A stretch of 64,000 nucleotides of DNA from the NCBI GenBank assembly GCA_019752015.1, contig JAIEMQ010000041.1:68469-132468 (forward strand), given 5' to 3'. This DNA comes from Cyanobacteriota bacterium. GTDB taxonomy: Bacteria > Acidobacteriota > Vicinamibacteria > Vicinamibacterales > UBA2999. Below are positions 32,103-50,020 of this stretch, one piece after another (the stretch's first letter is position 1; every line of letters begins with the position of its first letter). The notes under the pieces are model-generated. The model saw nothing but the letters and a program-made list of their open reading frames with translations, was not told where the DNA came from and searched no databases. The position numbers and the translations under genes were made by a program.

Positions 32103-35100
32103 CTACTGGCCAGGCCACCGGCCGGGTGTGTAAGGTACGCCCGCCGCTTCCAGTTGCTGCTCAAACTTCTTCAAGTCCGCTTCGAGCGTCCTCAACAGCG
32201 CGACCTGCGCGTTGAGATCGTCGTTCGCAATCGTGTAGTTCATCTGCTGCGTGCCGGTCGGTGCTCCCGCCAGTCCGCGCGAGCCCGCCACTGCGGAATT
32301 CACCCGCGACTGCACCGTCGAGGGCGCGCCTGATTCCGTTCCGCGCAGCGTTTCATCGCCGCGCAGCACGCGCAGAATCGCGAGCACACGCCGATCGAAC
32401 TGCACCGCCTGATCCATCAGCTTGGTGTCAGCGGGTGAATCGACGAGCGCGCGGCGAATCGCCTGTGTCCTCGTGCGCATGTTGTTCGCCTGTTCGAGTG
32501 CGCCGGTCAGCGTGCGCTGCAGCCTCGCGACGTTCTCTTGATACGTCGTTGCCGCGGTGCGTTGCGCGGGCGTCAGTTGCGGCGCCGCCGGATCCGCGGT
32601 CACCGTGATCGTCTGCGCCTCTCCGAGATTCGTGGACACGCCATTCACACGCCGCGACAACGCCACGCGATACGTGCCCGCTGCAACGTATGGACCACCT
32701 CCGGTACCGCCCTGGATCGCCGGCCCATCGTCGTCATCATCGGTGGCTCCACCGCCGCCGCCGCCACCACCGCCGCCTCCACCAAATCCGCCGCCGCCCG
32801 TGGTCGGCGCGATGCCGCGCAGATTCCAGACGTAGCGATGAATGCCGCGGCCGCCTGGGACCGTGAGACGACGGACGACTCGATTCGTGGAGTCAGTAAT
32901 GGTCAGGAAGGTTTGCGGCGCTTCTTCATCCGCTTCGGCGGTGAGCTGCGCCTGCGTCGGATACTGCGTGCCTTCCTTGATTTCGCCGCGCGATGCGAGC
33001 GTGCGCCGCTGGCGCGCCGACTGCGCCGTGTCCTTGATCCAATACGTGAAGATCGCGCCGAGCGGGCGATTGTCCGCCATCCACAGCGACTCGCCCTGCG
33101 AGCCGCGATTTCGCCCGGTCTCCTGCGTTTCGATCACCGCCGCCTTGACCGGGAAAATCAGGCCGTCGCGATCGAACGTCGCCTGCGACAACGTCCGCAG
33201 CGGCGTGTAATCGTCGAGGACGTAGAAGCCGCGTCCGAAGGTCGCGAGCACCAGATCGTTCTCGCGCTCCTGGATCACCATGTCGCGCACGGCGATGGTC
33301 GGCATGTTGCCGCGCATGCGGACCCACTTCTTGCCGCCGTCAACGGTGAAGAACAATCCGAATTCAGTGCCCGCGAACAACACGTTCGGATTGACGTGAT
33401 CTTCCGCGAATGACAACACCGGACCATTCGCCGGCAGGTCGCCGGCAATCGATTCCCACGATCCGCCGCGGTTATTGCTGCGATAGAGATACGGCTTGAA
33501 GTCGCCGTTCTTGGTGTTCTCCCACACGCCGTAGACGACGTTCTCGTCGCTCTTGCCGGCGTAGACGCGATTCACATACACACCGTAGCTGCCGTAATCG
33601 GGCAGCCCGGGCACCTTCTCGCTCCTGCGCCAGTTCGCGCCGGCATCGAGCGAAATCTGCACCAGCCCGTCATCGGTGCCGACGTAGAGCAGGCCTTCGC
33701 GCTTGCGCGACTCGCTGATCGCGGAGATGTTGCCCCACGTCGCCGTCGACTGATGCTGGGCGACCGCTTCCGGCGACCAGATGCGGCCCATCACCGGCAG
33801 CGTGTTGCGATTGGTCTGCCTGGTGAGATCGGGACTGATCGGCTTCCACGTGTTGCCGCGATCGTCGCTGCGGAACAACCGGCTGGCGCCGAAGTAGAGG
33901 CGCGACGGACTGTGCGGGCTGATGATGAACGGCGATTCCCAGTTGAAGCGCAGCGCGTTTTCCCCGCGATCTTCGACCGGCCTGATCTGCACGCGCTCGC
34001 TGGTGCGGCGATCGAGGCGGACCACGCCGCCGTACTGAGATTCGCCGTAGACGATGTTCGGATCGGACGGATCGATGCGCGACACGAAGCCGTCGCCGCC
34101 GGTGACGATGAACCAGTCGTTGTTGGTGTTGGCCTGGCCCTTGGCGCGCGACGGGCCGCCGAGCGTGCTGTTGTCCTGCGTGCCGCCGTAGATGTTGTAG
34201 ATCGGCGACGCGTTGTCGACGTCGACGTTGTAGAACTGCGTCACCGACAGGTTGGCGAAGTGGCGCCACAGGCGTCCGCCGTCCCACGTTTCATACAAGC
34301 CGCCGTCGCAACCCTCGAGCAGGTGATCGGTGTTGTCGGGATCGATCCACACGACGTGATTGTCGACGTGCTTGTTGCGCTCGCCGACGCCGCGGAACGT
34401 GCGGCCGCCGTCGTTCGAGACCTGTGTCTGCACCGACGGCACGTAGAGTTTTTCGGCGACCTTCGGATCGGGATGGATGTTCTCGTAATACATCGGCTGC
34501 GCCTGCACGTTGCCACGGCGCTCCCAGCTGTCGCCGGAATCGTTCGACGCGTAGATCGCGGTGTTCTCCGCGGTCTCGACTTTGGCGTAGATCAATCCCT
34601 TCTGCACCGGCGAAAAGGCGGGCACGATGCGCCCGAGATCGCCGCCCGGCAATCCCGTGCGAATGCGACGCCACGTCGCGCCGCCGTCCGTAGATTTGTG
34701 AATGCCGCTTTCGGGACCGCCGTGAATCAACGTCCACGTGTGACGCCGACGCTGATGCGCCGTCGCGACCAGCACGTCGGGATTGTTCGGATCCATCGCG
34801 ACGTCGCTGATGCCGGTGTTCTCGCTGATGTTGAGAATCTTCGTCCAGTTCGCGCCGCCATCGGTCGTCTTGTAAAGACCGCGATCGCCGCCCGCCGACC
34901 ACAGCGGACCGTAGGCCGCGACGAACACCACTTTCGAATCGCGCGGATCGATCACAATGCGGCCGATGTGCTGCGAGTCCTTCAATCCGAGATTGCGCCA
35001 CGAACGCCCGCCGTCGTCGCTGCGATAGATGCCGTCGCCCCAGCCAACGCTGCGCTGGTTGTTGGCTTCACCGGTGCCGACCCAAATCGTGTTCGGATTG

Positions 35101-35453
35101 TTCTTGTCGATCGTCACCGTGCCGATCGAATACGAGCCCTCGTTCTGGAAGACCGGCGTGAACGTGGTGCCGGCATTCGTCGTCTTCCACACGCCGCCCG
35201 ACGCCACGCCGATGTACCAGGTCTGCTTGTCCTCGGGATGCACCGCGACGACGTTGACGCGGCCGGACATCAGCGCCGGGCCGATGGCGCGCAGGCGCAG
35301 GTCGTTGAAGGTGGCTGAGGCCCAGGGATCCCGGGCAGCGGGGTTGTCGGGCTGCCCGCCCTGAGCGAGAAGCACGCCACTTGTGGCGTGCTTCGAGTCG
35401 AAGGGTGCGGTCAGCGCCGCGGCAATGCCGAGTGCAAAGATGAGTTTCTTCAT
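32103..35453 (-). CDS. Secreted sortilin/VPS10-type beta-propeller protein
   Basis: 1116 residues, ATG 35453. Signal peptide MKKLIFALGIAAALTAP, then an in-frame repeat insertion (residues 18-33). The main part is a ten-bladed VPS10/BNR-type propeller with many Asp-box turns: GGVWKTTNAGTTFTPV, GIYRSDDGGRSWRNLG, GLYKTTDGGANWTKI, GIHKSTDGGATWRRI, ASNDSGDSWERRG, LFRSDDRGNTWKPI and YRSNNRGGSWESI. A glycine run near residues 888-905 links to a C-terminal domain with a helical bundle (residues 985-1110). The family is annotated glycosyl hydrolase or sortilin-like; catalysis is unproven. A TATAAT box at 35464-35469 lies 10 nt before the ATG. Confidence 0.83.
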   Translation of the reverse strand: MKKLIFALGIAAALTAPFDSKHATSGVLLAQGGQPDNPAARDPWASATFNDLRLRAIGPALMSGRVNVVAVHPEDKQTWYIGVASGGVWKTTNAGTTFTPVFQNEGSYSIGTVTIDKNNPNTIWVGTGEANNQRSVGWGDGIYRSDDGGRSWRNLGLKDSQHIGRIVIDPRDSKVVFVAAYGPLWSAGGDRGLYKTTDGGANWTKILNISENTGISDVAMDPNNPDVLVATAHQRRRHTWTLIHGGPESGIHKSTDGGATWRRIRTGLPGGDLGRIVPAFSPVQKGLIYAKVETAENTAIYASNDSGDSWERRGNVQAQPMYYENIHPDPKVAEKLYVPSVQTQVSNDGGRTFRGVGERNKHVDNHVVWIDPDNTDHLLEGCDGGLYETWDGGRLWRHFANLSVTQFYNVDVDNASPIYNIYGGTQDNSTLGGPSRAKGQANTNNDWFIVTGGDGFVSRIDPSDPNIVYGESQYGGVVRLDRRTSERVQIRPVEDRGENALRFNWESPFIISPHSPSRLYFGASRLFRSDDRGNTWKPISPDLTRQTNRNTLPVMGRIWSPEAVAQHQSTATWGNISAISESRKREGLLYVGTDDGLVQISLDAGANWRRSEKVPGLPDYGSYGVYVNRVYAGKSDENVVYGVWENTKNGDFKPYLYRSNNRGGSWESIAGDLPANGPVLSFAEDHVNPNVLFAGTEFGLFFTVDGGKKWVRMRGNMPTIAVRDMVIQERENDLVLATFGRGFYVLDDYTPLRTLSQATFDRDGLIFPVKAAVIETQETGRNRGSQGESLWMADNRPLGAIFTYWIKDTAQSARQRRTLASRGEIKEGTQYPTQAQLTAEADEEAPQTFLTITDSTNRVVRRLTVPGGRGIHRYVWNLRGIAPTTGGGGFGGGGGGGGGGGGATDDDDDGPAIQGGTGGGPYVAAGTYRVALSRRVNGVSTNLGEAQTITVTADPAAPQLTPAQRTAATTYQENVARLQRTLTGALEQANNMRTRTQAIRRALVDSPADTKLMDQAVQFDRRVLAILRVLRGDETLRGTESGAPSTVQSRVNSAVAGSRGLAGAPTGTQQMNYTIANDDLNAQVALLRTLEADLKKFEQQLEAAGVPYTPGRWPGQ
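35359..35404 (-). repeat. Modular palindromic element, copy A (inside the VPS10 gene)
   Basis: Read on the minus strand: CCTTCGACTC (35404-35395), then a 26-nt palindrome GAAGCACGCCAC-AA-GTGGCGTGCTTC (35394-35369, perfect 12-nt arms), then TCGCTCAGGG (35368-35359). It encodes FDSKHATSGVLLAQG in frame, right after the signal peptide. Copies B (35540) and C (49191) share both flanks. Confidence 0.85.
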
Positions 35454-35484
35454 GCGGGCTCAGATTATATTGGGCCTGACCAAC
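35454..35484. promoter_or_regulatory. 31-nt divergent promoter region
   Basis: Only 31 nt separate the start codons of the VPS10 gene (minus) and the NHL gene (plus). The shared AT-rich core GATTATATT gives TATAAT on the minus strand (35464-35469, 10 nt before its ATG) and TATATT on the plus strand (35466-35471, 13 nt before its ATG). No ribosome-binding site fits in either direction, so very short or no leaders are expected. Confidence 0.6.
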
Positions 35485-36300
35485 ATGGGACGAACGCTGT
35501 TACTGATAGCCGTTTTGTTTGCCTCACCGTTATTCGCCTCCTTCGACTCGCCGGTCGCCGTAAGCGGCGACCAGCTCGCTCAGGACAAGCAGGACAAGGG
35601 CGGTGAAGACGAGACCGGCGCGTATGAGGTCGTGCCCAACTGGCCGCAGCCGTGGTCGCCGGCCGGCTACATCTGGGGCTCGCAGCCGGCGGTGTTTGCG
35701 CAATCGCCCGATCGGATTTTCATCGGCGTTCGCGGCGAGATCAAGGCGCCCAATCCGGCGCCGCGCGGCTTCAACGGCTCGTGGGGATCGACCGGGCAGC
35801 GCGCCACAGAGCCGGCGGCCGAGACGCGCAACTGCCTGATCGTCGTCAATCGCGATGGGCACGTGATCGAGTCGTGGACGCAGTGGGACAAGCTGTTCGA
35901 AGGCGGCGGCGCGCCGCACAAGATCCGGATCGATCCCAGCGATCCCGCGAAGCACGTGTGGGTCGTCAACGACGGCAGGCACGCGATTCACAAGTTCACC
36001 AACGACGGCAAGCAGCTGGTGATGACGATCGGGGAGCCCGGTGTGCCGGGCGATGATGCGACGCACTTCGGCACGCCGCAGGATCTCGCGTTTCTTCCGG
36101 ACGGATCGATTCTCGTTGCCGATGGGCTTCGCAACGCGCGGATCGCGAAGTTCGACAAGACCGGCAAGTTCGTGTCGTCGTTCGGGACGCGCGGCAATGC
36201 GCCCGGGCAACTGAGCGGCGTGCACGGCATTGCCGTCAGCAAGGATGGCCTCGTCTCGTGGAAAGCGGCAAGGAAGTCGACCGGTGGAATACCGGCGTGA
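35485..36300 (+). pseudogene. Secreted NHL-repeat protein lacking its 3' part
   Basis: ATG 35485, signal peptide MGRTLLLIAVLFASPLFA, then the modular repeat (copy B) and normal NHL sequence: PAGYIWGSQPAVFAQSPDRIF, DPSDPAKHVWVVNDGRHAIHKF, TPQDLAFLPDGSILVADGLRNARIAKFD and LSGVHGIAVSKDG. At about 36250 the propeller breaks off after four blades and the frame ends in unrelated residues (WKAARKSTGGIPA). About 100-150 residues are missing. DNA just beyond reads as the C-terminus of a different protein, so a deletion fused two genes. Confidence 0.68.
35540..35584 (+). repeat. Modular palindromic element, copy B (inside the NHL gene)
   Basis: CCTTCGACTC (35540-35549), then a 26-nt palindrome GCCGGTCGCCG-TAAG-CGGCGACCAGC (35550-35575, 11-nt arms with one mismatch), then TCGCTCAGG (35576-35584). 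It encodes FDSPVAVSGDQLAQD in frame, directly after the signal peptide. Flanks match copy A while the palindrome sequence is different, though of equal length. Confidence 0.85.
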
Positions 36301-49111: not shown

Positions 49112-50020
49112 ATGCGCATCAGGACGTATTTGTTTGTAACGCTGCTCTCGGCCACCACGGCCTTTGCTCAAACTCCAGCCGCGGGAGGCCCCTTCGACTT
49201 CGCTCAGGGCGAGCAGCAGCCCGAACGGAGGCCCGGCGTTGCGTCCGTAAACACCGCGCCGCGTGTGGATGTGACGACCATGCCGCGCCCGATCGACATG
49301 CACGACAGCGTGTGGATCGAAGACCTCATCATGCTCGAGGTGCGCGACCTAATCAAGTCGGGCAAGACCACGGCGTTGATCCTGACCGGCGGCATCGAAG
49401 AGAACGGTCCGTACTTGACCACCGGCAAGCACAACAACGTGTTGAAGGCGACCGGTGAGTCAATCGCACGCTCGCTTGGGAACACGCTGGTCGCGCCGAT
49501 CGTGACGCTCGAGCCCGGCAACCCGCTGCGGCCCAACCTCCCGCCCGGCACGATCGTGCTGTCGCAGGCAACCTTTCACGCCGTGCTCACCGACATGGCC
49601 AACAGCCTGCGCTCGCAGGGCTTCAAGGACGTCGTGATGATCGGCGACAGCGGCGGCAACGCCAAGGGGATGCAGGCCGCGGCCACCGCGCTCAATGCGG
49701 AATGGCAGGGCCAGGGTTACGTCCACTTTATCCCCGAGTACTACAACTACGCCGACGTCGAGAAGTTCGAGGAAGAAAAGCTCGGCATCCACGAAAAGCT
49801 CGAGGGCTATCACGACGACTACTACATCACCGCGATCATCTCGACGGTGAGCACCGACGCGATTCGCATGCCCGAGCGCCGCAAGGCGGGGAAGTTCGTG
49901 ATCAACGGCGTGCCGCTCGATCCGATTGCGACGACGATCGAGAACGGCAGGAAGATGGTGGCGTTCCGGACAGAGGTAACGGTTGCTGCGATCAAAAAAT
50001 CGATGGCATCGAAGCAGTAG
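49112..50020 (+). CDS. Secreted creatininase-family protein (copy 2)
   Basis: 302 residues, ATG 49112 with GGAGG upstream. Signal peptide MRIRTYLFVTLLSATTAFA, then an in-frame modular repeat (copy C, encoding FDFAQGE). The fold matches copy 1: SVWIEDLIMLEVRDLIKSGK, LTGGIEENGPYLTTGKHNNVL and MIGDSGGNAKGMQ, with the same substitutions at the classical metal ligands. Both copies share IPEYYEYN/YNYADVEK and HDDPIIT/HDDYYIT, so they are true paralogues. Divergent from the CxxCH gene. Its stop is followed at once by a repeat-based hairpin. Confidence 0.8.
   Translation: MRIRTYLFVTLLSATTAFAQTPAAGGPFDFAQGEQQPERRPGVASVNTAPRVDVTTMPRPIDMHDSVWIEDLIMLEVRDLIKSGKTTALILTGGIEENGPYLTTGKHNNVLKATGESIARSLGNTLVAPIVTLEPGNPLRPNLPPGTIVLSQATFHAVLTDMANSLRSQGFKDVVMIGDSGGNAKGMQAAATALNAEWQGQGYVHFIPEYYNYADVEKFEEEKLGIHEKLEGYHDDYYITAIISTVSTDAIRMPERRKAGKFVINGVPLDPIATTIENGRKMVAFRTEVTVAAIKKSMASKQ
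49191..49210 (+). repeat. Modular element, copy C (no palindrome)
   Basis: CCTTCGACTTCGCTCAGGGC is exactly the two flanks of copies A and B joined without the 27-nt insert. It encodes FDFAQG just after the signal peptide of creatininase copy 2. The length difference from A and B is 27 nt, nine codons, so the frame is kept. Confidence 0.8.

Follow-up and report, generated by a model that had tools for sequence, protein, structure and literature searches.

A dispersed palindromic element of Vicinamibacterales with a near-constant foot and a hairpin that changes by paired substitutions, mostly inside genes

Introduction

Repetitive extragenic palindromic (REP) sequences and REPtron elements, with their transposase TnpA_REP (REP-associated tyrosine transposase, RAYT), comprise GTAG and CGTC families, and the inner portion of the loops of Bradyrhizobium GTAG-14 repeats is self-complementary over as much as 27 bp (PMC3733652). 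That source also places Rickettsia palindromic elements (RPE) inside many unrelated genes (PMC3733652). The TnpA_REP of Escherichia coli is reported to rely on the GTAG motif and an unpaired bulge, with no preference for the letters of the loop (PMC8266576). The class 3 TnpA_Y1 proteins of Planctomycetes, Acidobacteria and Proteobacteria are associated with a CnGA foot and with atypical hairpin structures that flank the gene, about 600 copies of which occur in Solibacter usitatus, as reported in that study (PMC6006769); this is the closest published description that we found. In our study, we analyzed in silico a stretch of 64,000 nucleotides (nt) from a bacterium of the Vicinamibacterales lineage UBA2999 (contig JAIEMQ010000041.1, positions 68,469 to 132,468; hereafter, the window), which contains three copies of a short palindromic element, and we followed this element in the rest of the genome and in related genomes.

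The proposed element

We suggest that the copies probably represent a REP-like miniature element composed of two modules. The first would be a constant foot, 5'-GCYTGYCCTGAGCGA ... GAGTCGAAGGG-3' on the working strand, and the second an apical hairpin that would have to pair, with its letters left free. A putative protein processing hairpins of single-stranded DNA (ssDNA), such as an HuH/Y1 nuclease or a similar enzyme, would read the letters of the foot together with the presence of the hairpin, and the same protein would spread the copies and let the hairpin drift. Copies in flexible linkers, signal-peptide junctions and termini would survive, and frame-breaking ones would be lost. The element has a recognizable structure, is dispersed, shows a frame bias in coding DNA and covaries at the same site; at fixed sites, the foot is near constant over genus-level divergence and the hairpin changes by paired substitutions. 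The features of the window that belong to the element are as follows.

35360 to 35404, minus strand: copy A, long form, a 44-nt core plus one C
Foot of copy A: CCTTCGACTC and TCGCTCAGG on either side of the 26-nt palindrome GAAGCACGCCAC AA GTGGCGTGCTTC
35540 to 35584, plus strand: copy B, long form, a 44-nt core plus one C, palindrome GCCGGTCGCCG TAAG CGGCGACCAGC
49191 to 49208, plus strand: copy C, short form CCTTCGACTTCGCTCAGG, foot without the apical hairpin

The pattern CCTTCGACT-N0-30-CGCTCAGG finds exactly these three copies in the window and nothing else, with no match in 100 dinucleotide shuffles, in agreement with the original prediction, which had noticed the three copies. The peptides read in frame are PFDSKHATSGVLLAQG for copy A, after the signal peptide of an exported protein of 1116 amino acids, SFDSPVAVSGDQLAQD for copy B, also after a signal peptide, and PFDFAQG for copy C, a little past a signal peptide, and the predicted readings FDS-KHATSGVL-LAQ, FDS-PVAVSGDQ-LAQ and FD-FAQ thus hold. 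The same applies to the insert of 27 nt in A and B, since CTTCGAC to CAGG spans 44 nt in these copies versus 17 nt in C. The adjacency to signal peptides claimed for all three was found for A and B, which directly follow the signal peptide, and not for C, which lies six residues past the AFAQ end.

Copy number and distribution

In the genome of the window (G000, 5.92 Mb; G000 to G008 denote the nine genomes of the genus), CTTCGACT-N0-30-CGCTCAGG has 59 matches versus 1 for the reversed pattern, and CTTCGAC-N0-30-GCTCAGG, which adds the AAG and AGG loop types, has 87 versus 6. With the longer gap, CTTCGAC-N31-60-GCTCAGG has 31 matches versus 4, six of the 31 being places already found with the N0-30 pattern and a few being chance or nested. 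The genome contains about 80 copies, those of the window included, with 1 to 6 matches in the reversed controls, and the genome-wide flank search proposed in the original prediction thus returned many copies beyond the three of the window. An origin by chance was rejected, as both the shuffles and the reversed-pattern controls fell far below the observed counts.

The N9-38 form is present in 27 of the 40 genomes searched as relatives (own included), with 108 copies in G002, 30 in G001 and 25 in G005. Furthermore, a search of 297 phylum genomes, own included, for CTTCGACTC-N20-40-TCGCTCAGG found it in 19, among them several genomes of another family, two of which have 35 and 18 copies. Copy number tracks genome size (rho 0.83 in the nine genus genomes). 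No significant polarity of orientation was detected along the contigs (22 neighbors in the same and 12 in the opposite orientation, p 0.12), which leaves room for a weak polarity.

Short tandem arrays of the element were observed in relatives of the same order (G027:C45:161953-162180, G034:C78:6778-6880 and G035:C405:34557-34645), and the long pattern occurs on nine viral contigs (L304 to L312). Two other dispersed repeats were met in G000. One, of about 45 nt, lies at L080 3280-3324 (G000:C11) and has more than 20 further places in this genome; the other, of roughly 30 to 75 nt, lies at L078 600-2700 (query 1307-1379; G000:C9) and recurs at many places in several genus genomes, most ends falling near query position 1379.

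Anatomy of the element

In the consensus of 138 copies given above, read on the CCTGAG strand, the central letters are those of the search pattern, and the outer GCYTGY and the last GG are independent of the search. The foot can pair as a CCT/AGG stem followed by two G.A juxtapositions (an asymmetric internal loop), which, by the rules for DNA, may form tandem sheared pairs. The apical hairpin has roughly 8 to 15 bp and is lacking in the short-loop copies. A copy is termed long when it measures at least 36 nt from CTTCGACT to CGCTCAGG, unless stated otherwise. Among 158 copies of at least 25 nt in six genomes, the total length takes 19 values between 25 and 53 nt, most often 47 or 44, and the insert of 27 nt that the original prediction had noted in A and B is one of many.

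In the well-populated length classes, the stem pairing per position is mostly 0.7 to 0.97, versus mostly 0.3 to 0.6 expected from the composition of the columns. Pairing is almost absent at the first inner position, and position 5 is weak in the 40-, 47- and 49-mers. The palindromy noted in the window copies extends to the wider set, as most inserts fold far better than control windows of the same loci (median z of -3.9 with 86% below -2, versus -0.2 with 6%; 140 each).

A search for 47-mers in G000, G002 and G005, allowing up to three changes in the foot, gave 44 copies with perfect 18-nt flanks, and the reversed control gave 3, 6 and 9 matches (18 in all, with up to three changes). The palindromic share was 17 of 18 with one flank change, 3 of 8 with two and 2 of the 49 listed with three. 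The three palindromic copies with two changes all have the outer C-G of the foot replaced by A-T (twice) or T-A, and one three-change copy has G-C there; one of the two palindromic three-change copies (8/13 pairs) is probably due to chance. Since neither the hairpin nor covariation was part of the 47-mer pattern, these exchanges support the outer foot stem. Eight palindromic one-change copies have a single base of that pair altered, so that not every copy needs the pair.

Evolution at fixed sites

The gene of the E2 acyltransferase (a name, like others below, assigned from the sequence) was found in all nine genus genomes by a DNA search independent of the pattern, and its linker carries the element, at one and the same site, in six of them (G000, G002, G003, G005, G006 and G008); G001 and G004 are without it, and in G007 it is missing or eroded. 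All six copies have 47 nt, and their feet are identical in five, with one base off in G008. In their alignment, 97.2% of 72 cells are paired and 7 of 12 pairs are changed on both sides, values that none of 500 shuffles reached; the number of further pair types was reached by 52 of the 500. The third codon positions of the feet (GCT, CTC, TCG) are identical too, which argues for a constraint acting on DNA rather than on protein.

A second locus, L080, has two copies, and its gene cluster is found, besides the own genome, only in G001 and G002, both of which carry the element at both sites, with one foot change in two of these four copies. In G004, the site of copy A holds an element of equal length whose palindrome is different and covaries. 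The element-free alleles foreseen in the original prediction were found in seven of the nine close orthologues of A that were read (own included, and G041 left out), namely, in G001, G002, G006, G040, G042, G043 and G044; they include four genomes of another genus, and their signal-peptide ends are each their own. A search for related loci with protein A gave three loci.

For a wider comparison, 17 of 28 listed pairs were kept as orthologous after dropping those that differed in length, measured less than 36 nt, came from a single genome or had offsets above 25 nt; the L077/L141/L192 trio supplies three of the 17. Of their 217 stem positions, 131 are unchanged, 36 are paired in one member only, and in 35 both bases differ between the members, each of which has a Watson-Crick pair. 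The original prediction had read the palindromes as exchangeable cargo, and it is possible to imagine a cassette whose flanks are recombination or target sites, with whole palindromes swapped between copies. Some sites fit this idea. The hairpin of L133 (G002) is 0.90 identical to that of another G002 site versus 0.58 to its G000 orthologue, that of L159 (G001) shows 0.84 versus 0.55, and such copies amount to 4 of the 27 tested in all; moreover, both L080 sites of G002 share a hairpin that has no counterpart at the orthologous sites of G000 and G001, and lengths are unequal at some orthologous sites (25 versus 48 nt at L047/L135), as far as the stretches fetched around the copies allow the comparison. 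However, no clearly closer paralogue exists for 23 of the 27, and many orthologous pairs are equal in length and differ in a graded, paired manner, as drift gives (mean identity of 74% for the inserts versus 81% for the flanking DNA in the 17 pairs). We therefore consider a cassette unlikely, and free swapping a minority pattern next to the 35 pair-keeping double changes: the differences between hairpins look like paired substitution for the most part, with some signs of replacement.

Private hairpins and dispersal

When hairpins of equal length were grouped by single linkage at 75% identity, the 42 long copies of G000 fell into 41 families and the 58 fetched long copies of G002 into 42, with multi-member families of 9, 3, 3, 3, 2 and 2. 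The family counts imply that most copies have kept a common foot and changed past recognition in the hairpin. Across five hairpin families of G002, agreement of the flanks is mostly limited to the stretch between about CC and about RCARG; some members of the nine-copy family have slightly more in common, part of a CAAGCCC-like repeat. Identical hairpins occur at different sites in G002, and the unit disperses together with its hairpin, which supports the mobile palindromic element of the original prediction.

A group of eighteen CTTCGAC-AA/AG-GCTCAGG copies in G000 (L053 and L091 to L106, e.g., C1:263793) has a GTCGCCCCGAGC-like stretch downstream at a fixed, short spacing; each copy resembles one half of an inverted REP doublet, which sets the group apart from the long form.

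Position in genes

A codon score trained on 20 long open reading frames (ORFs) of the window, applied with ad hoc thresholds, places 107 of the 136 long copies inside coding frames and the other 29 in non-coding DNA. Among the coding ones, 53 are near the N-terminal end, 41 internal and 13 near the C-terminal end. The total length is 17+3k in 83 of the 107 coding copies versus 14 of the 29 non-coding ones (Fisher p 0.005); the in-frame insertion inferred from the window is thus supported as a length bias, and the copies are tolerated in protein regions that look flexible, as had been supposed. The hosts include genes presumably encoding MurG, FabZ and threonine synthase, in addition to the E2 acyltransferase. 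A motif selected at the protein level was rejected, as one DNA sequence is read in three frames and on both strands into different peptides.

The claim that the element always stands just after a signal peptide did not survive. By a rough rule, 30 of the 107 coding long copies have a signal-peptide- or membrane-like segment whose end lies no more than 20 residues before them, and a general signal-peptide element was rejected on this count. Even an enrichment is unproven, because 20 of 32 window genes have such an N terminus under a looser rule.

The genes that host the long copies of the window are as follows.

32103 to 35453, minus strand: host gene of copy A, 1116 amino acids, exported, putatively sortilin/VPS10-like
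35485 to 36300, plus strand: host gene of copy B, with the start ATG at 35485 (MGRTLLLIAV...) chosen by inspection
35383 to 36300, plus strand: the same frame as given in the ORF list, with an upstream GTG start

Three related genes of G000 (L003, L022 and L053), which we assume to be PQQ-dehydrogenase-like, contain the short form at what seems to be a shared position in the protein, with YWSD or AFWG followed by PSTSLR.

Which strand folds

Stem mismatches were counted in the 153 of 165 genus sequences and the 32 of 45 second-family sequences with at least 60% pairing, and recounted with no cut. In the CTTCGAC orientation, the genus mismatches are A.C 103, G.T 39, C.C 42, G.G 11, C.T 65 and A.G 23, with a G.T/(G.T+A.C) share of 0.27 versus 0.44 in partner shuffles (lowest 0.39 of 500). 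The second family has G.T 1 versus A.C 25, a share of 0.04 versus 0.37 when shuffled (lowest 0.23), and with no pairing cut the shares are 0.31 and 0.25, respectively, both below every shuffle. Read on the opposite (CCTGAG) strand, the frequent mismatches become G.T, G.G and G.A, which are the better tolerated kinds. Furthermore, the CCTGAG strand folds more stably in 106 of 138 copies and the other strand in 29. The recognized form would thus be a folded single DNA strand reading CCTGAG...TCGAAGG, a conclusion that is well supported but indirect.

A different possibility is that the hairpin acts in the transcript, on stability, translation or the targeting of secreted proteins. In favor of an mRNA element, 79 of the 107 coding copies are in the + orientation, an excess over the 3:2 ratio that follows from a stop codon in one of the minus frames (p 0.004), many copies are near gene starts, and the G.T pairing in GTAG REPs has been read as a hint of RNA function (PMC3733652). 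However, the other 28 coding copies are antisense to their gene, 29 of the 136 are non-coding, and in + genes (16:42), - genes (8:16, few cells) and non-coding DNA (9:26) alike, one and the same strand of the element shows the G.T:A.C bias. A bias fixed to the element strand points to folded DNA, as that of a transcript would flip with the gene, and it means that the transcripts of + genes carry the poorly tolerated mismatches. Taken together, these data make an mRNA element very unlikely.

It could also be supposed that no structural selection exists, with template switching during replication copying changes between the arms and with the constancy of the foot reflecting recent spread. Template switching has been proposed to create and maintain hairpins (PMC8794818), and very perfect stems do exist, such as that of copy A. 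On the other hand, the E2 feet are identical in five of six copies across the genus, synonymous third positions included, the outer foot pair covaries too, the mismatches are strand-asymmetric, and the recurrent weak pair at position 5 of the 40-, 47- and 49-mers is one that self-copying should erase. Template switching without structural selection therefore appears improbable.

Search for an enzyme and weight of the proposal

Searching for Y1_Tnp (PF01797) gave 13, 5, 1, 1, 5, 6, 3, 5 and 5 hits in G000 to G008, respectively (44 in total), of which 39 loci were examined in the genus, five hits being without a locus and L031 and L043 overlapping. The RAYT association suggested in the original prediction was not observed in the own genome or in the genus. 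The only nearby copy lies inside a neighboring gene, whose G002 orthologue has a copy and no Y1 gene, and no correlation was found between the numbers of Y1_Tnp hits and of copies (rho 0.09 in the nine genomes). At the Y1_Tnp locus L036, a AGGCGGGACTTTAGTCCCGCCT-like palindrome and AGGCGCAACTAAAGTTGCGCCT flank the matched domain (1311-1368 and 1958-2017), and copies of AGGCGGGTCTTTAGACCCGCCT precede the orthologues of A in both G001 and G002; this looks like a proper RAYT-REP pair of the genus.

Several points weigh against the proposal of a REP-like element with a processing protein. The element stands beside none of the 13 Y1_Tnp loci of G000 and within 1.5 kb of Y1_Tnp at 1 of the 39 genus loci examined, and G002, the genome richest in copies (108), has a single Y1_Tnp hit. 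Selfish spread alone does not explain the constancy of the foot at a fixed site inside a gene. A paralogue clearly closer than the orthologue and a difference in length at orthologous sites were both met, in the cases already described. As for the data themselves, most copies were found by the exact letters of the foot, and foot constancy was tested only in the E2, L080 and 47-mer comparisons; the coding assignment depends on the ad hoc codon score; the class of - genes is small taken alone (8:16); and related copies are not independent in any count. Moreover, the E2 locus was picked for the copies already found there in three genomes, and because the choice was not blind, we weighted template switching slightly up and the two-module element slightly down.

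One might hypothesize that the copies are host-maintained ssDNA hairpin sites, mostly intragenic, each with a private hairpin, whose foot would be read by an undescribed protein and whose orthologous positions would be kept by DNA-level selection, overriding codon choice, and not by spread alone. We regard this reading as rather doubtful, and continue to favor the two-module REP-like element. This element separates what is fixed (the letters of the foot, the pairing and one strand) from what is free (the letters of the hairpin) inside coding DNA, so that it offers a natural experiment on the possible reading of shape by a hairpin-binding protein where a change in DNA is also a change in protein, and a clean case of a DNA structure preserved through genes over species divergence. 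It also accounts for the odd runs of residues (FDS..LAQ, PST..SLR and LSE..RVEG) in the proteins of these bacteria.

Comparison with known systems

No description of such an element and none of its foot letters were found in the literature, in a search of largely open-access journals. The likeness to the REP/RAYT system is that of short, dispersed, high-copy hairpins with a foot conserved on one strand, some REPs being inside genes as well. However, different from REPs, the foot (consensus of 138 copies GCYTGYCCTGAGCGA / GAGTCGAAGGG) has neither GTAG/GTGG nor CGTC, no linked TnpA_REP gene was found (0/13 loci in G000 and 1/39 in the genus), and nearly every copy has a hairpin sequence of its own. 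Furthermore, REPs are mainly extragenic, whereas 107 of 136 long copies score as coding here by the ad hoc codon score.

With class 3 TnpA_Y1, the element shares a 5' CnGA, present as CTGA in CCTGAG, which is weak evidence as these letters belong to the search pattern. The class 3 Y motif YV[VI][AENY]EQ was not seen among the 26 of 39 Y1_Tnp loci with a resolved Y motif, and the consulted portion of the class 3 account, compared by description only, is silent on private, covarying hairpins (PMC6006769). The indifference of TnpA_REP to the loop would be, by analogy, the kind of shape reading that we propose for the element.

In integron attC sites, the ends are conserved and the hairpin between them is variable in both length and sequence, and the sites are used as one folded DNA strand; the element resembles them in these conserved ends and in the proposed single folded strand. 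In contrast, its foot consensus is without the attC core letters, and its copies are single and inside genes. Finally, RPEs insert in frame, and the element shares with them in-frame insertion into many unrelated genes; whereas RPE families share recognizable sequence, only the foot is common among the copies described here.
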